Shown here: positions 5,232 through 36,370 of the stretch, one piece after another | Numbering within the stretch: the first letter of the stretch is position 1 | Layout of the letters: every line of letters starts with the position of its first letter | Source of the DNA: Streptomyces celluloflavus | GTDB lineage: Bacteria; Actinomycetota; Actinomycetes; Streptomycetales; Streptomycetaceae | DNA length: 64,000 nt | NCBI GenBank assembly: GCA_000720995.1 | Contig: JOEL01000019.1 | Location: 1 to 64,000, forward strand | Direction: 5' to 3' | Made by a program: the position numbers and the translations under genes | Notes under the pieces: generated by a model | Told to the model about the DNA's origin: nothing | Seen by the model: the letters and a program-made list of their open reading frames with translations, nothing else | Databases searched by the model: none

Positions 5232-7772
5232 GTGGCCGCGCAGAACGCCACGCACGCACCGGATCACGCTTCGGATTCCGTTCGCGACCGTGAGATCGAG
5301 TCCGAGCAGACGCATCTCGACCGCGTCTACCGGCGCCTTGAGGAGAAGATCCACGAGGCAGAGTTCCTGATGGACGACGCCGCCAAGCGCGGCCAGGTCG
5401 GCACGCCCGGCGCGCTCGCCGAGCGCGACGCCCAGGTCTTCCAGGCCGGCGTCCATCTCCACCGGCTGAATTCCGAGTACGAGGACTTTCTCTTCGGCCG
5501 GATCGACCTGCTCCTCGGCAAGGACGGCAAGAAGGGCCCGGACGGCGCGTACACCTCCGTCGAGCCCGCCGACGGCGCGATCGAGGACGGCCGCGCGGAG
5601 ATCGCCGAGACGCTGCACATCGGGCGGCTCGGCGTCCTCGACGCGGACTACTCGCCGCTGGTCATCGACTGGCGGGCACCGGCCGCCGCGCCCTTCTACC
5701 GCGCGACGCCGGTCTCCCCCGGCCGGGTCGTACGGCGCCGGGTCATCCGCTCCAAGGGCCGCAAGGTCCTCGGCGTCGAGGACGACCTGATGCGCCCGGA
5801 GGTCACCGCGACGCTGGACGGCGAGGAGCTGCCCGCGATCGGTGACGGCGCGCTGATGGCCGCGCTGGGCCGGGCCCGCAGCCACACCATGCGGGACATC
5901 GTCGCCTCCATCCAGGCCGAACAGGACCTGGTCATCCGCGCCCCCGCCGCGTCCGTGGCGGAGGTCGAGGGCGGGCCCGGTACGGGCAAGACCGCCGTCG
6001 CCCTGCACCGCGCCGCCTACCTGCTCTACCAGGACCGCCGCCGGTACGCGGGCGGCATCCTGATCGTCTCGCCGACGCCGCTGCTGGTCTCGTACACCGA
6101 AGGGGTGCTGCCGTCGCTCGGCGAGGAGGGCCAGGTCGCCATCCGGGCGCTCGGTTCGCTCGTCGACGGCGCGGAGGCGACCGCGTACGACCCCCCGGCG
6201 GTCTCCCGGATCAAGGGATCGAGCCGGATGCAGAAGCTGCTGCGCAAGGCGGCCCGCGGGTCGCTGGAGACGGCGGCGCCGGGCACGGGCGCGCGATCGT
6301 CGGAGGACGGCCGGCCGGGCGGCGCCGGGGCCCCGGCGGAGGAGGCCGCCCAGCTGTCCCTGGAGGACCTCTTCGCGGCGGCCGGGGACGACGCGCCGGC
6401 GGCCCCCGCCGCCGGTACGGAGGACGGCCGGGGCCGCCGCCGGGTCCGCTCCCCGCGCGCGGACCAGGAGCCCGCCGCGGCGCCCGCCCGGCTGCGGGTC
6501 GTCGCGTTCGGCGGCCGGATCGAGCTGGAAGCAGAGGAGCTGCGCGGCATCCGGCACGTCGCGCTGGGCGGGACCGCGCCGGTCAACCTGCTGCGCCCGC
6601 GCGCCCGCCGGCTGATCCTGGACGCCCTGTGGACCAAGTCGGGGGCCGCCCGGCGCTATACGGATCCCGAGCTGGCCGCCGAGGTCCGCCAGGGCTTCGA
6701 CGAGGACATCGGCACCGAGCCGGACTTCCAGGAGTTCCTGGACGCCTGGTGGCCGGAGCTGACCCCGCGCGGGGTGCTGGCCGCGATGGCCGACGAGCGC
6801 CGGCTCGGCCGCTGGGCGCGCCGGGTGCTCAACCCGCGCGAGGTGCGCCAACTCGCCCGTTCGCTGCGGCGGCTGGACGGCGCGGGCCAGGGGCCGCTGT
6901 CGGTGCACGATGTCGCGCTGCTGGACGAACTGGAGCTGATCCTCGGCGCCCCGATGCGGCCGGCCCGGCAGCGCGAGGCGGACCCGCTGGACCATCTGAC
7001 CGGTCTGGAGGAGCTGTCGACGTTCGCCGACCGCACGGCGGGGCGCGGCCGGCGCGAGCGGCTGGCGGAGGAGCGCACCGACTACGCCCACGTCATCGTC
7101 GACGAGGCGCAGGACCTGACGCCGATGCAGTGGCGGATGGTCGGCCGGCGTGGCCGGCACGCCACCTGGACCGTCGTCGGCGACCCGGCGCAGTCCTCGT
7201 GGTCCGACCCGGACGAGGCCGCGCTCGCGCGCGACGAGGCGCTGGGCACCCGCCCGCGCCGCCGCTTCACGCTCACCGTGAACTACCGCAACCCGGCGGA
7301 GATCGCGGAGCTGGCGGCCAGGGTGCTGGCGCTGGCGATGCCCGGTATGGAGTCGCCGCGGGCGGTCCGCGCCACGGGCCTGGAGCCGCGGTTCGCGGTC
7401 GTCGCCGACGCCGGCGGCCGGGCCGCCGCGGAGGCGGAACTGGCGCGGGCCACCGTCGAGGAGGCCGGCCGGCTGCTGGGCGAGGTGGACGGCACGGTCG
7501 GTGTCGTCGTCGCCATGAACCGCCGGGAGCAGGCCCGCGACTGGCTGGCCGGTCTCGGCGACCGGGTGGTCGCACTGGGCTCCCTGGAGGCCAAGGGGCT
7601 GGAGTACGACGCGACGCTGGTGGTCTCGCCGGCCGAGATCGCCGACGAGTCCCCGGCCGGGCTGCGGGTGCTCTACGTGGCGCTGACCCGGGCCACCCAG
7701 CAGCTGACCGTGCTCTCCGCCGGACGCGACGAGCCGGACGCGCAGGGGGTGCCCGACCTGCTGCGGGACTGA
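5232..7772 (+). CDS. HelD-type UvrD/Rep-like ATPase (RNA polymerase-associated)
   Basis: 846 residues from a GTG at 5232. Residues 15-95 form an N-terminal helical arm (VRDREIESEQTHLDRVYRRL), the HelD coiled coil that enters RNA polymerase. The 1A domain has Walker A GGPGTGKT at 247-254. Around 340-430 is a low-complexity acidic/Pro-Ala insertion. The Walker B-like box YAHVIVDEAQDLTPMQW lies near 617-633, and the UvrD C-terminal motifs FTLTVNYRNPAEIAELA, GLEYD and LRVLYVALTRATQQL follow. HelD proteins remove or recycle stalled RNA polymerase, and Streptomyces HelR also protects against rifampicin. Function here is by family. A strong hairpin follows the stop. Confidence 0.9.
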   Translation: MAAQNATHAPDHASDSVRDREIESEQTHLDRVYRRLEEKIHEAEFLMDDAAKRGQVGTPGALAERDAQVFQAGVHLHRLNSEYEDFLFGRIDLLLGKDGKKGPDGAYTSVEPADGAIEDGRAEIAETLHIGRLGVLDADYSPLVIDWRAPAAAPFYRATPVSPGRVVRRRVIRSKGRKVLGVEDDLMRPEVTATLDGEELPAIGDGALMAALGRARSHTMRDIVASIQAEQDLVIRAPAASVAEVEGGPGTGKTAVALHRAAYLLYQDRRRYAGGILIVSPTPLLVSYTEGVLPSLGEEGQVAIRALGSLVDGAEATAYDPPAVSRIKGSSRMQKLLRKAARGSLETAAPGTGARSSEDGRPGGAGAPAEEAAQLSLEDLFAAAGDDAPAAPAAGTEDGRGRRRVRSPRADQEPAAAPARLRVVAFGGRIELEAEELRGIRHVALGGTAPVNLLRPRARRLILDALWTKSGAARRYTDPELAAEVRQGFDEDIGTEPDFQEFLDAWWPELTPRGVLAAMADERRLGRWARRVLNPREVRQLARSLRRLDGAGQGPLSVHDVALLDELELILGAPMRPARQREADPLDHLTGLEELSTFADRTAGRGRRERLAEERTDYAHVIVDEAQDLTPMQWRMVGRRGRHATWTVVGDPAQSSWSDPDEAALARDEALGTRPRRRFTLTVNYRNPAEIAELAARVLALAMPGMESPRAVRATGLEPRFAVVADAGGRAAAEAELARATVEEAGRLLGEVDGTVGVVVAMNRREQARDWLAGLGDRVVALGSLEAKGLEYDATLVVSPAEIADESPAGLRVLYVALTRATQQLTVLSAGRDEPDAQGVPDLLRD

Positions 7773-28427: not shown

Positions 28428-28628
28428 TCAGGCAGCGTCGAAGCTGTTGCCTTTCACCTCTGCCACGAACGAGCACCAGGAGGCAGCAGGGAACGCCAGG
28501 GCCGGGCCGTGGGGGTCCTTGCTGTCACGGACGGGGACGACGCCGGGGACATTAGCGGCAACCTCGACGCAGTTACCGCCGTTGCTGCTGTAGGAGGACT
28601 TGAACCAGCGGGGGGAGTCGGTCGTCAC
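28428..28628 (-). CDS. DUF397 small protein
   Basis: 66 residues with the typical DUF397 pattern: RWFKSSYSSNGGNCVEVA, then VPVRDSKDPHGPALAFP and ASWCSFVAEVK. Family members form regulator/modulator pairs with the WhiJ-like XRE proteins of Streptomyces. Its ATG overlaps the stop of the upstream XRE gene by 4 bases, confirming co-expression. Confidence 0.92.
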   Translation of the reverse strand: MTTDSPRWFKSSYSSNGGNCVEVAANVPGVVPVRDSKDPHGPALAFPAASWCSFVAEVKGNSFDAA

Positions 28629-29461
28629 GAGATGCCCTTTCGTACCTCATTGATCATGGCCACCGATGCCGCCTGGGGCAGAGCTTCGGCCTGCAACTGA
28701 TGGTAGGCCGTCAGCAGGGGTAGTACGGCTGCCGTATCGCGTTCCAGGTGGCCCCGTAGCTGGGATTCCGCGTACGCGACCACAGACAGGTCCGACATCG
28801 TGAGTAGGTTCATCGGGAGGTTGAACGATCGCCGCGCTCCTATCCCAAAGGGTGACACCTGCAATACCCAGTTGGGGAGAGAGGCGACTTCGACCAAGCG
28901 GCGAAACTGAGTATCCATCACCTCGGTACCGCCGACCGCATGGCGAAGACAGCTCTCATCCATCACCACAAGCGCCATGGGCAAACGGGGGCGCACCAGC
29001 GCCGCTTGCCGCCTAGCGAGAAAAGAAACCCGCTCCTCCGCTTGTTCGGGCGTGATGGCACCACGCTGCACGTCACCATCCGCCACCGCCCGCGCGTACT
29101 CCGGTGTCTGCAACAGGCCCGGGATCAGCCCGATCTCAAACAGCCGGAGCTCTGCTGCCTTGCCCTCGTACTTGACGTACTCCGGGAAGCCTTCCAGCAG
29201 GTTGCCGTGTTTGATCTCGCGGTACTGACGCTCGAACGCATCCGCCGTACCCACAAGGCCGAGGGCGCGATCAACGCCACGCGATAGGCGGAGGGTTGGA
29301 GGTTTCCGACCATTTTCGACGGCTGAAATATGCACGCTGGAATATTCCGTGCGGCTGGCCAGATCCTCTTGGGTCCAGCCGCGCGCTTCCCGCAGGCTGC
29401 GTAAACGCGCCCCGTAGGCCGCCTCGGGAGATGCATCCGGGTTCAACTCGTTCTTGTTCAT
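28625..29461 (-). CDS. XRE-family regulator with DUF5753 domain (WhiJ-like)
   Basis: 278 residues from the ATG at 29461 (MNKNELNPDASPEAAYG). The HTH_31/XRE domain covers about 13-68: LRSLREARGWTQEDLASRTE with YSSVHISAVENGRK as recognition region. Residues 95-270 are DUF5753 (YEGKAAELRLFEIGLIPGLLQTPEYARA, RQAALVRPRLPMALVVMDES, LLTMSDLSVVAYAES). With the DUF397 partner it forms a whiJ/abaA-like pair, of which Streptomyces carries many copies that tune development and specialised metabolism. It sits immediately upstream of, and divergent from, the RiPP-like locus. Confidence 0.9.
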   Translation of the reverse strand: MNKNELNPDASPEAAYGARLRSLREARGWTQEDLASRTEYSSVHISAVENGRKPPTLRLSRGVDRALGLVGTADAFERQYREIKHGNLLEGFPEYVKYEGKAAELRLFEIGLIPGLLQTPEYARAVADGDVQRGAITPEQAEERVSFLARRQAALVRPRLPMALVVMDESCLRHAVGGTEVMDTQFRRLVEVASLPNWVLQVSPFGIGARRSFNLPMNLLTMSDLSVVAYAESQLRGHLERDTAAVLPLLTAYHQLQAEALPQAASVAMINEVRKGIS

Positions 29462-29573: not shown

Positions 29574-30119
29574 ATGGGTGCTACCCCCGTCCAGGCCCAA
29601 TCCATTGAGGAGTTGGGCAAGCGCCTGCACGACGCACTCAAAGCCGCTGGCATCCTCGTTGACCCGTCCCTGATCGCCACCATCAGCACGCACAGTGGCG
29701 CCCTGGTGGACAAGATCGCCCCGCCGACGATCTGGGCAAGAAAACCAAGGGCGTCAACGACCGCAGCAGCAACGGCAGCAATGCCGACAGGGAGACGGAT
29801 GGGGCAGGGAAGCCGTGCTGCGACAAACGCTAAGGGCCCTGAGGCGGCCGTTCAGTCCCCAGGAGGGGGAAACCCGGCCGCCCCTGTGCTGACAAGCGAC
29901 TACCGGCCCGTTCGGCGCCCCATGGCGTGGCGCGACATGGCTCCGCTGGGGGATGGGGCGTACCGGTGTGAGGTACACGGGGTGACCGTGGTGTTCCATG
30001 CCCCCGGCCCGCCGGCCGGCACCCCGCCCCGGACGATCACGGCGCCGCTTGCCGGGTCGCTCAGAGGTCGCCACCGTCGACCCCAAGAACGTCCGCCATT
30101 TGAGAGCGTGTTGACCTCT
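29574..30119 (+). other. Unresolved coding-like stretch, possibly a frameshifted small gene
   Basis: An ATG at 29574 with a good AAGGAGG site opens a convincing helical start (MGATPVQAQSIEELGKRLHD, ALKAAGILVDPSLIATISTH). After about residue 48 the frame turns into Arg/Ala/Thr-rich sequence, whereas another frame continues protein-like (DDLGKKTKGVNDRSSNGS...) and stops at about 29833. A further protein-like piece, MAWRDMAPLGDGAYRCEVHG at about 29923, is followed by SEVATVDPKNVRHL in yet another frame. These look like one or two small genes carrying frameshifts or decay. The frame is open all the way into the 29-residue peptide, so a continuous long protein cannot be excluded. I recognise no family. 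Confidence 0.3.
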
Positions 30120-30142
30120 CAGGGGGCGGGAACCACCCCCTG
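30120..30142 (+). promoter_or_regulatory. Hairpin upstream of the RiPP-like peptide gene
   Basis: CAGGGGG-cgggaacca-CCCCCTG, perfect 7-bp arms, 38 bases before the peptide start. It could terminate the upstream stretch or structure the leader of the peptide mRNA. Confidence 0.45.
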
Positions 30143-30179
30143 TCAGGGTGGGTACCCGGCAACGACTAAGGAGAGATGG

Positions 30180-30269
30180 ATGTCCAAGCACAAAGGTGAG
30201 CCGGAAGACAAGCCGTGGACTCCGCCGAAGGAGCCTCCGAGCAAGGACGGGAGCCGACCGAGTAAGTAG
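30180..30269 (+). CDS. Putative RiPP (imiditide-like) precursor peptide, 29 residues
   Basis: The ATG at 30180 is preceded at ideal distance (6 nt) by AAGGAG (30168-30173), the strongest ribosome-binding site nearby. That separates it from the open frame running in from upstream. The peptide is Lys/Pro/Glu-rich with no hydrophobic core: MSKHKGEPEDKPW near the start and SKDGSRPSK at the end. It has two Asp residues, D10 and D23; D23 is followed by Gly, the context most prone to aspartimide formation. It ends 5 bases before the start of a PIMT-homologous methyltransferase. No Cys, and only two Ser and one Thr lie between the ends, so lanthionine chemistry is unlikely. Identification as a precursor is an inference from the pairing. 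Confidence 0.6.
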   Translation: MSKHKGEPEDKPWTPPKEPPSKDGSRPSK

Positions 30270-30274
30270 GCGGA

Positions 30275-31411
30275 ATGAACTACCGAGCAATCTCTCGCAA
30301 GGAGCTTGAAGTCATGGGGGCCTTCCGGTCCCCATGGCTTCGGCCAGCCTTCGACAGAGTTGACCGCGAAGCCTTCGTCCCTGACAGGTTCTGGGGTGAC
30401 GGCACAGACGACGCTGGACGGCACCTGGTCCTCGACAAGGCTGAGGACGAGGACAGTTGGCGTAGAGCTGTCTGGAACACCCATAGCTCGCTCATTACTC
30501 AGATGGATGACGGGATATCTCCGGAACACGGTCCCTTCAAGGGGGACTTCTCGTCCTCCATCTCTGCGCTCGACATTGCCTTCGAGAAACTGAATCAACT
30601 CGAAGTGGATTCAGACCACAAGGTTCTGCACATCGGCACAGCATCCGGCTACGACTCAGCGCTACTGTGTGAAGGCGTGGGCAGTGGAAGCCTGACCACG
30701 ATCGAGTTTGACCCCGTACTCGCTTCCTGGGGCGCTAAGAACCTCGAAGATGCCGGGTACTCGCCCACTGCCATCTGCGGGGATGGCCTGGAGGGGTGGG
30801 TGCCAACTGCCCCCTACGACCGCGTGATCTCGACGGCGGCGGTACGCAGCATCCCCCGTCAGTGGATCGAGCAATCGGCGGAGGGTGCGGTCATCCTGAC
30901 GCCCTTCAATACCCTGTACGGACGTGGCGGCCTCTTGAAGCTTCGAGTACAACAAGGCGTTGCGGCAGGCAGGTTCGTGGGGGGTGCCTGCTACATGTGG
31001 GTGCGCAGCCATCGCCCGAAGAATCAGATCAACCCTGCGGACGAGAAACGCAAGAACGCATCGCCTATCGACCCTGAAGAGGTTCTCGGGCAAGGTTGGG
31101 AAATCAACTTCACCATGGGCCTATACCTGCCGGATGTCTCATTTGCTCATCGTGGTGAGGGCGAGTCCAAGCAAGCACAGTTGTGGGATGAGGCTGGCAC
31201 ATCCGTGGCCATCGTCAACTACGACGAATGGTGGCGTGACGGCGCGGTGACGCTGTACGGCAGCCGGAATCTGTGGGCCGAGCTGGTTCGCGTATACAGC
31301 GCGTGGAGAAATGCCGGGCAGCCCCATTACACGCACTATGGGCTCACCTGTGACCGGAGTGGACAGCACCTGTGGCTCGATGAACCATCCAACGTCATCG
31401 GGGGTCCATGA
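30275..31411 (+). CDS. RiPP-associated protein-L-isoaspartate O-methyltransferase homologue
   Basis: 378 residues, longer than housekeeping PIMT (~210-220). Residues 5-225 are PIMT-like: AFRSPWLRPAFDRVDREAFV, motif I KVLHIGTASGYDSALL (116-131), acidic TTIEFDPVLASWGAKNL, and DGLEGWVPTAPYDRVISTAA. A C-terminal extension ends with AWRNAGQPHYTHYGL; W344-x3-G348-x-P350 matches the W-x3-G-x-P motif known for PIMT homologues of RiPP clusters (graspetide, lanthipeptide, lasso and imiditide). Those enzymes methylate an Asp side chain, and the ester then closes to an aspartimide. Its start lies 5 bases after the 29-residue peptide, so they are translationally coupled. No ATP-grasp, LanM/LanB-like or lasso cyclase genes adjoin, which favours the two-gene imiditide class. 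A strong terminator follows. Confidence 0.85.
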   Translation: MNYRAISRKELEVMGAFRSPWLRPAFDRVDREAFVPDRFWGDGTDDAGRHLVLDKAEDEDSWRRAVWNTHSSLITQMDDGISPEHGPFKGDFSSSISALDIAFEKLNQLEVDSDHKVLHIGTASGYDSALLCEGVGSGSLTTIEFDPVLASWGAKNLEDAGYSPTAICGDGLEGWVPTAPYDRVISTAAVRSIPRQWIEQSAEGAVILTPFNTLYGRGGLLKLRVQQGVAAGRFVGGACYMWVRSHRPKNQINPADEKRKNASPIDPEEVLGQGWEINFTMGLYLPDVSFAHRGEGESKQAQLWDEAGTSVAIVNYDEWWRDGAVTLYGSRNLWAELVRVYSAWRNAGQPHYTHYGLTCDRSGQHLWLDEPSNVIGGP

Positions 31412-33730: not shown

Positions 33731-36370
33731 ATGGCCGTCGTGACCGACAACACTCAGCGCCCCGACAGCGGGCCGAACAGCGCCCCCGAACTGCCGACTC
33801 AGTACGCGCCGGCCGAGGTAGAGGGGCCGCTGTACGAGCGCTGGGTAGAGCGCGGTTACTTCGAGGCCGACGCGAAGAGCGACAAGCCCCCGTACACCAT
33901 CGTCATCCCGCCGCCGAACGTCACCGGCTCCCTCCACCTGGGCCACGCCTTCGAGCACACGCTGATCGACGCCCTCGTCCGCCGCAAGCGGATGCAGGGC
34001 TTCGAGGCGCTGTGGCAGCCGGGCATGGACCACGCCGGCATCGCGACCCAGAACGTCGTCGAGCGGGAGCTCGCCAAGGAAGGCAAGTCCCGCCACGACC
34101 TGGGCCGTGAGGCGTTCGTGGAGCGGGTCTGGCAGTGGAAGGCCGAGTCCGGCGGCCAGATCGCCGGCCAGATGCGGCGCCTGGGCAACGGCGTCGCGTG
34201 GAGCCGCGACCGCTTCACCATGGACGAGGGCCTGTCCCGTGCCGTCCAGACGGTCTTCAAGAAGATGTTCGACGACGGTCTGATCTACCGCGCCGAGCGC
34301 ATCATCAACTGGTGCCCGCGCTGTCTGACGGCCATCTCGGATATCGAGGTCGACTACCAGGACGACGACGGCGAGCTCGTCTCCATGACGTACGGCGAGG
34401 GCGAGGACACCATCGTCGTCGCCACTACCCGTGCCGAGACGATGCTGGGTGACACCGCGGTCGCCGTCCACCCCGATGACGAGCGGTACGCGCACCTCAT
34501 CGGCAAGCAGATCAAGCTGCCGCTGACCGACCGTACGATCCCTGTCGTCGCCGACACGCACGTGGACCCGGAGTTCGGCACCGGCGCCGTCAAGGTGACC
34601 CCGGCGCACGACCCGAACGACTTCGCCATCGGCCAGCGCCACAACCTCGAATCCATCGAGGTCCTCGACGAGCGCGGCATCATCACCGTCCACGGTCCCT
34701 TCCTCGGACTGGACCGGTTCGAGGCCCGCTCCGCGATCGTCGCCGCGCTGCGCGCCGACGGCCGGATCGTCGCCGAGAAGCGCCCCTACGTCCACTCGGT
34801 CGGGCACTGCTCGCGCTGCAAGACGACGCTGGAACCCCGGCTGTCGATGCAGTGGTGGGTCAAGGTCGAGACCCTGGCCAAGGCCGCCGGCGACGCCGTG
34901 CGCGACGGCCGGGTCGACATCCACCCGGCCGACATGTCGCAGCGGTACTTCGACTGGGTCGACAACCTCAATGACTGGTGCATCTCGCGCCAGCTGTGGT
35001 GGGGCCACCGCATCCCGGTCTGGCACGGCCCGGATGGCGAGCTGGTCTGTGTCGGCCCCGACGAGGAGCCGCCGACGGGTGAGGGCTGGACGCAGGACAC
35101 TGACGTCCTCGACACCTGGTTCTCGTCCGGCCTGTGGCCGTTCTCCACGCTGGGCTGGCCCGAGCAGACCCCTGACCTGGAGAAGTTCTATCCGAACTCC
35201 GTCCTGGTCACCGGCTACGACCTGATGTTCTTCTGGGTCGCCCGGATGATGATGTTCGGTCTGTATGCGATGGACGGCCAGCAGCCGTTCCACACGATCG
35301 CGTTCCACGGCATGGTCCGCGACGAGTTCGGCAAGAAGATGTCGAAGTCGTTCGGGAACACGGTCAACCCGCTGGACTGGATGGACAAGTACGGCTCCGA
35401 CGCGCTGCGCTTCACCCTGGCGCGTGGTGCCAACCCGGGCGTTGACGTCCCGATCGGTGAGGACTGGGTCCAGGCGTCCCGCAACTTCGCCAACAAGATC
35501 TGGAACGCCACCCGGTTCGCGCTGATGAACGGCGCCACCGTCGAGGGCGACCTGCCGCCCGTCGAGCAGCTGTCGGCAACCGACCGATGGATCCTGTCGC
35601 GGCTCAACAAGACCGTGGCCGAGGCCGACGCGCTTTACGACGACTACCAGTTCGCCAAGCTCGCCGATGCCCTCTACCACTTCGCGTGGGACGAGGTCTT
35701 CGACTGGTACGTCGAGCTGTCCAAGACGACGTTCTTCGAGGGCGGCGAGCAGGCCAAGGTCTCGGCACGTGTCCTGGGCGAGGTCCTCGACGTCACCCTG
35801 CGCCTCCTCCACCCGATCGTCCCGTTCGTCACCGACACCCTGTGGACCACGCTCACCGGGCGCGAGTCCGTCGTGATCGCGGACTGGCCGAAGGACTCGG
35901 GCTTCCGCGACGACGTCGCCGAGCAGGAGATCGAGCTGGTCCAGCGGGTCGTCACCGAGGTCCGGCGCTTCCGCTCCGACCAGGGCCTGCAGCCGGGCCA
36001 GAAGGTTCCCGCCCGCCTGAACCTGGACGGCACCGCACTGGCCCCGCACGAGGCCGCCATCCGCCAGCTGCTCCGTCTGCAGCCGGAAGGCGAAGGCTTC
36101 AGCGCCACTGCATCGCTGCCGGTGGCCGGCGCGGAAGTGGCGCTCGACCTGTCGGGCACGATCGACGTCGCCGCGGAGCGCAAGCGCCTCGCCAAGGACC
36201 TTGCCGCGGCCGAGAAGGAGAAGGCGCAGGCCGAGGGCAAGCTCGGCAACGAGGCGTTCCTGGCGAAGGCCCCGGACAACGTGGTCGACAAGATCCGGAC
36301 CCGCCTCGCGAAGGCCGAGGAGGACATCGTCCGGCTGCAGAACCAGATCAGCAGCCTGCCGACCGGGTAG
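33731..36370 (+). CDS. valS: Valyl-tRNA synthetase, accessory copy
   Basis: 879 residues, full length for a bacterial ValRS. The class I signatures are intact: [16 protein letters not shown] (HIGH-like HLGH, about 58-73) and [20 protein letters not shown] (KMSKS). The editing CP1 domain is present ([20 protein letters not shown] and [14 protein letters not shown]), with the [17 protein letters not shown] signature, an anticodon-binding region ([16 protein letters not shown]) and the C-terminal coiled coil ([20 protein letters not shown]). It charges tRNA-Val in the cytosol. It lies inside the tRNA-Cys island, away from the folC-type neighbourhood of the housekeeping valS in Streptomyces, so it is probably a second copy. 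Possible roles are self-resistance to a ValRS inhibitor or supply of valyl-tRNA to a pathway. Confidence 0.93.

Follow-up and report, generated by a model that had tools for sequence, protein, structure and literature searches.

Two adjacent genes for a peptide and a methyltransferase

The window analysed here, a stretch of 64,000 nucleotides from Streptomyces celluloflavus (GCA_000720995.1, contig JOEL01000019.1, positions 1 to 64,000, forward strand), contains a pair of adjacent genes that we regard as a candidate imiditide, or type I pamtide, cassette. The upstream gene encodes a short peptide and the downstream gene encodes a PAMT, a homologue of the methyltransferase PIMT. The features of the pair are as follows:

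30165 to 30179, plus strand: ribosome-binding site of the peptide gene, ACTAAGGAGAGATGG before the ATG (from the sequence; the DNA similarity to the relative L019 starts just upstream, at 30156)
30180 to 30269, plus strand: precursor peptide gene, 29 residues, MSKHKGEPEDKPWTPPKEPPSKDGSRPSK, with D23 of D23-G24 as the proposed modified residue (from the sequence, alignment and profile)
30275 to 31411, plus strand: PAMT gene, 378 residues, with a PIMT-fold domain to about residue 248 and then a C-terminal domain with W344-x3-G348-x-P350

An earlier, sequence-only reading of this DNA had placed a small open reading frame (ORF) with a strong ribosome-binding site directly ahead of the methyltransferase gene, and the positions and lengths that it gave are all borne out by the sequence, as is the 5-base gap between the end of the 29-codon ORF (30180-30269) and the methyltransferase start at 30275. 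An independent peptide profile, made from 17 peptides of a distant enzyme clade with the window's own clade excluded, was searched against six-frame translations of the whole window and of the loci of 16 relatives. Its only match below E = 1 in the window was the peptide at 30180, with E = 2.5e-12. Because a profile drawn only from the distant clade finds it, the sequence evidence argues that the 29-residue peptide is a real gene, beyond chance.

The sequence-only reading had noted that its proposal would fail if the peptide were the C-terminus of a longer protein reading from 29574. Although the reading frame of the peptide does stay open upstream, from 29541, the G+C content over 29760-30179 does not vary with codon position (0.70/0.69/0.70), and in L019, whose enzyme is 80% identical, the frame is closed one codon ahead of the peptide start. 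Thus, the longer protein is ruled out and the short ORF stands alone.

The peptide is short, free of Cys (as had been claimed) and rich in Pro, Gly, Asp and Lys. It had also been called highly charged, which holds for the count of charged residues (seven Lys or Arg, five Asp or Glu, and one His) but not for the net charge, which is just about +2; that of the L019 peptide is 0. K17 and K22 are found solely in the window peptide, and L019 has Pro at both positions.

The description of the enzyme as a 378-residue PIMT homologue whose C-terminal extension carries W344-x3-G348-x-P350 likewise agrees with the sequence. The strict W-x3-G-x-P motif occurs in 18 of 24 enzymes; taken singly, W344 is kept in 19 (with Tyr in the other five), G348 in 22 and P350 in all 24. 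When a structure model of the enzyme was compared with known structures by VIA-align, it aligned with 1dl5, the two-domain PIMT of T. maritima, over residues 3-373 and thus over both domains. Note that 1dl5 has been placed in the PAMT clade (PMC10787088). As judged from the sequence and the model, the enzyme therefore has the C-terminal domain and the WXXXGXP motif that mark type I pamtides.

Conservation of the pair and of its Asp-Gly

Among 392 genomes of the window's genus (the window's own included), nine contained the enzyme at E <= 1e-80, in 11 places including the window. A homologous peptide lies upstream in all ten of the remaining places, in L015 beside a frame-broken enzyme; the sequences of two of the places, L011 and L017, are identical and lie at the two ends of a single genome. 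A separate scan of named genomes gave 17 loci, every one from Streptomyces. Sixteen of these are full-length relatives of the enzyme, 44-80% identical, and the remaining one, L035, is partial and 39% identical, with no such peptide seen. Upstream of the 16 full-length enzymes the peptide is intact in 14, frame-shifted in L024 and absent in L021. Consistent with this, the independent profile matched just upstream of the methyltransferase in 15 of the 16, with 14 strong matches and a weak one (9e-4) to the frame-shifted ORF of L024, so that the conserved upstream peptide for which the sequence-only reading had called was found. Moreover, L019 and the window share 82% DNA identity over 30156-31398 only, which is to say over both genes and the ribosome-binding site. 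With the nearest relative, therefore, the alignment covers just the two-gene unit of precursor and PAMT, and no cyclase was found among the neighbouring window ORFs scanned.

Another peptide profile of 17 rows reached further. It matched 54 of the 392 genus genomes at E <= 0.01, and 40 of these at E <= 1e-5 (nine of the matched genomes had themselves supplied rows). A phylum-wide draw of 396 genomes from 236 genera gave two matching genomes, both in the window's genus. The 30 best peptide places were fetched, counting that of the window, and a PAMT homologue adjoins 29 of them, with four of these homologues interrupted or partial (L047, L050, L054 and L068); among the 21 places whose cassette did not feed the profile, 20 have a PAMT. 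Nineteen of the 29 adjoining enzymes are just 31-36% identical to the window enzyme, and the 17 of these that were placed in a tree form one clade, separate from the window clade. The motif KPWTPP...DG is nevertheless common to the cassettes with these divergent enzymes.

In the alignment of 17 peptides, D23 is kept in 16, G24 in all 17 and the D23-G24 pair in 16. D23 is the only near-invariant Asp; D10 is absent from the IKPW group (six of the 17 peptides). The D-G pair is also present in all 30 places picked with the 17-row profile, which itself contains D-G. The proposal of D23-G24 as the aspartimide site fits this pattern, and a short conserved precursor rich in Pro, Gly, Asp and Lys, with the Asp near Pro or Gly, is as expected of a type I pamtide.

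Over 32 cassettes the distances between peptides and those between enzymes were correlated with a Mantel r of 0.33 (none of 5,000 permutations as high), and within the non-window clade alone r was 0.63 (again none of 5,000). When substitutions were pooled over ten sister pairs, the peptide core had a ratio of nonsynonymous to synonymous change (pN/pS) of 0.19, and the enzymes had one of 0.33; in six of the ten pairs the core shows no amino-acid change.

The window genome holds 15 PAMT-family hits in all, and at least one more of these (L003, ...DGHPGQPWTPTDEPTPDGGQPDGGGDHRK) lies beside a similar peptide. For this reason the strain may produce several Asp-modified peptides.

Neighbouring genes and phage-borne relatives

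Two genes on the opposite strand lie upstream of the cassette:

28625 to 29461, minus strand: XRE-family regulator with DUF5753, divergent from the cassette (Pfam)
28428 to 28628, minus strand: DUF397 small protein adjoining the XRE regulator (Pfam)

It is possible that the XRE/DUF397 pair regulates the cassette. In the window genome, the number of the 15 PAMT-family hits that have a DUF5753 domain nearby is 3 at distances up to 2 kb, 6 up to 3 kb and 8 up to 4 kb, when uniform placement would give 0.37, 0.50 and 0.63, respectively (the count used 38 of 40 DUF5753 hits, two fragments being excluded). Among the window-clade bacterial loci (the window and L019-L034), sequence clustering placed a DUF5753 relative within about 6 kb in 6 of 17, which at an assumed background of 4% has P ~3e-5; four of the six were confirmed by Pfam. 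L031-L033 have an XRE gene of a different type (Pfam on L031 only), and no XRE regulator was found among the one to three neighbours tested with Pfam for each of L019, L021, L023, L024, L025, L026, L028 and L034. Note that a link of DUF397/DUF5753 with PIMT-bearing graspetides has already been published (PMC13097080).

Between the regulator and the cassette is a small ORF, 29574-29834 (MGATPVQAQSIEELGKRLHDALKAAGI...), which by eye seems to continue from about 29720 in a different frame. None of the fetched loci has a relative of its first 50 residues. Further along, at 33731-36370, is a second valyl-tRNA synthetase gene, which may be a resistance or accessory copy. The other copy in the same genome (G000:C8) is 86% identical over the first 400 residues, and close copies in two relatives have different surroundings. 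A shared insertion site beside this gene was considered and rejected: over the roughly 20 kb compared around its closest copy in the two relatives only the synthetase gene aligned, and no empty site was found.

Relatives of the enzyme are also carried by phages. Among 50,697 phage records, eight, corresponding to five phages, contain PAMT homologues 33-34% identical to the window enzyme. The four phages that were examined are all Austintatiousvirus. In each, the PAMT is annotated as (O-)methyltransferase, and a small gene 8 bases upstream encodes a Gly/Ser-rich peptide of the form SGKHGGG...SSDGSGP(A/S)K:

L036, 5789-7125: Austintatiousvirus gene pair, peptide and PAMT
L037, 5786-7125: Austintatiousvirus gene pair, peptide and PAMT
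L038, 7723-9125: Austintatiousvirus gene pair, peptide and PAMT
L039, 5720-7125: Austintatiousvirus gene pair, peptide and PAMT

In these four Streptomyces phages the pair has an endolysin on one side and a regulator gene on the other (XRE/DUF5753 in Bioscum, its relative in Austintatious and other helix-turn-helix types in the remaining two); two of the four phages also have an annotated integrase close by. In IMG/VR, 15 contigs carry relatives, some of them the same Austintatiousvirus phages, and in nine (L070-L075 and L077-L079) an imiditide-like peptide was seen upstream by eye, with no statistic attached. L073 and L075 are positive for phage genes, for L079 the one protein tested gave no hit, and the others are taken as listed. 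In L073 the pair is flanked by integrase, endolysin and tail genes. L075 has two candidate precursors in a row upstream of 8001, one of which has the core PWTPPQEPPSPDG; a DNA polymerase and a transcriptional regulator, both of phage type, lie nearby. No relative of the window-clade enzyme was confirmed in IMG/VR. A tblastn search with the peptide gave no match in the phage and plasmid collections, a result that says little because low-complexity sequence was filtered. The main texts of two imiditide papers contain no word starting with 'phage', and a search by title and start of abstract found no publication on phage-borne imiditide cassettes, which does not prove their absence from print.

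A probable imiditide cassette and its known counterparts

We consider it probable, at roughly 0.85, that the window pair is a two-gene imiditide or type I pamtide cassette. Sequence and modelling show the two genes and their conservation, the Asp-Gly kept in the peptide, the family to which the enzyme belongs and its two-domain fold, and every type I pamtide sequence feature that was tested is present. The imiditide-like interpretation of the sequence-only reading thus gains support from the architecture, the conserved peptide, the PAMT-type enzyme, the near-invariant Asp-Gly and the lack of a cyclase in the scanned ORFs.

Several observations weigh against this assignment. The best NCBIfam match of the enzyme, TIGR04188 (ATP-grasp-system methyltransferase), scores 256.9 bits, below the curated cut-off of 380 bits. 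Just before the Asp the window peptide has Lys, where 14 of the remaining 16 in the alignment have Pro, and in the L028 peptide (about 5870-5995) Gly replaces the conserved Asp. L021, whose enzyme is 57% identical, has no detectable peptide upstream of 6001, and L053 has a peptide (about 1500-1580) without an enzyme. Within the window clade alone the peptide-enzyme correlation is weak (r = 0.27, 38 of 5,000 permutations as high), and in two of the ten sister pairs, L032-L052 and window-L019 (core pN 0.124, enzyme 0.105), the core changes faster than the enzyme.

Three other explanations of the pair were weighed. It is highly improbable that the enzyme is an ordinary protein-repair PIMT preceded by a chance ORF or an unrelated leader peptide: it scores far under the cut-offs of all four repair-PIMT equivalog models listed (81.4 against 188, 79.8 against 282, 78.4 against 159 and 51.6 against 359 bits), it has a C-terminal domain, its genome has 15 PAMT-family hits, and the upstream peptide is strongly conserved. 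The match to TIGR04188, together with the fact that characterised PAMTs often require cyclised peptides (PMC10787088), would suit a secondary tailoring enzyme of a macrocyclic peptide (a graspetide or a lanthipeptide) with its cyclase gene at another locus. We think this very unlikely, given that the peptide has no Cys and that the unit common to the window and L019 is just two genes. In addition, as the sequence-only reading had claimed, no macrocyclase was found among the neighbouring window ORFs scanned, nor an ATP-grasp, LanB/C or lasso enzyme (the scan covered part of the ORFs and took in few of those opposite the xanthine-dehydrogenase and valS genes). Finally, the peptide might be a translated control element (a leader or attenuator) of the methyltransferase, with another protein as the true substrate, an idea to which the tight spacing, the orphan enzyme of L021 and the L028 peptide without Asp lend something. 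It is still quite unlikely, as conservation acts at the amino-acid level (6 of the 10 codons changed relative to L019 are synonymous, in keeping with the pooled pN/pS) and the near-invariant D-G agrees with known target chemistry.

For the imiditide cassette we envisage the following mechanism. The PIMT-like methyltransferase would recognise the 29-residue peptide as a linear chain, probably via the charged ends of the peptide and its own C-terminal domain, and would methylate the side chain of D23 with S-adenosylmethionine; the methyl ester would then close on the Gly24 amide to give an aspartimide, which could hydrolyse to isoaspartate (isoAsp) or Asp. We infer this chemistry by analogy. PAMTs methylate Asp, the ester closes to aspartimide and hydrolyses to isoAsp or Asp, charged peptide residues and the enzyme C-terminal region play a part in recognition, type I pamtides need no cyclase, and NmaA/NmaM and SpaA/SpaM perform aspartimide chemistry on linear peptides (PMC10787088, PMC13001092). 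The same goes for recognition in the window pair, for possible export or trimming and for the part that the peptide plays in the cell; what imiditides do is unknown (PMC13001092).

The peptide core is common to enzymes with just about a third of their residues still identical, which makes a conserved partner of the product itself probable. More speculatively, and on balance doubtfully, the KPWTPP...PDG peptides could be a single conserved product, restricted to Streptomyces, on which two enzyme clades only about a third identical act and which is shuffled between genomes in two-gene cassettes, often beside XRE/DUF397 regulators, with a related form in integrase-bearing phages; the Asp-modified peptide would then be dedicated to signalling or competition and have a receptor that is itself conserved, and phages would use the same device as a lysogen cargo gene. 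With precursors down to 29 residues, the shared core supplies a small group of substrates that lend themselves to testing, and phage-borne cassettes built in the same way would make function accessible to genetics in S. venezuelae lysogens.

Imiditides, or type I pamtides, were published in 2023, with 1,414 counted, and because the features of the window pair fit them we regard it as a new example within a known class. The suggestion of an undescribed member therefore stands as a member of that class; the idea of a subclass is weaker, as type I pamtides were already described as numerous and as falling into several patterns of conservation (PMC10787088). What goes beyond the published class description is the peptide core common to divergent enzymes and the phage-borne relatives.

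Graspimiditides (group 13 graspetides, with ATP-grasp and PIMT) resemble the window pair in enzyme family (TIGR04188 best, below cut-off) and in DUF397/DUF5753 neighbours (PMC13097080), but no ATP-grasp enzyme was found beside the window cassette among the ORFs scanned. Cysimiditides, or type II pamtides (FcaA/FcaM), are also two-gene PAMT systems with a conserved Asp; unlike theirs, the window peptide has no Cys and lacks the CxxCxGxG zinc motifs, and hence the zinc ribbon CxxCxGxG-D-CxxCxGxG. It differs from type I pamtides in length (29 residues versus about 45) and from NmaA, compared here by its published description, in having Gly after the Asp rather than the His reported there; on the same basis, the conserved KHxG and KPWTPP motifs of the window family are a further difference. 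In other respects it is like the type I pamtides NmaA/NmaM of Nonomuraea maritima and SpaA/SpaM of Streptomyces sparsogenes: two genes, a linear precursor that lacks Cys and is rich in Gly, Pro, Asp and Lys, one conserved Asp, a PAMT with an extra C-terminal domain and WXXXGXP, and frequent occurrence in Streptomyces (PMC10787088, PMC13001092).
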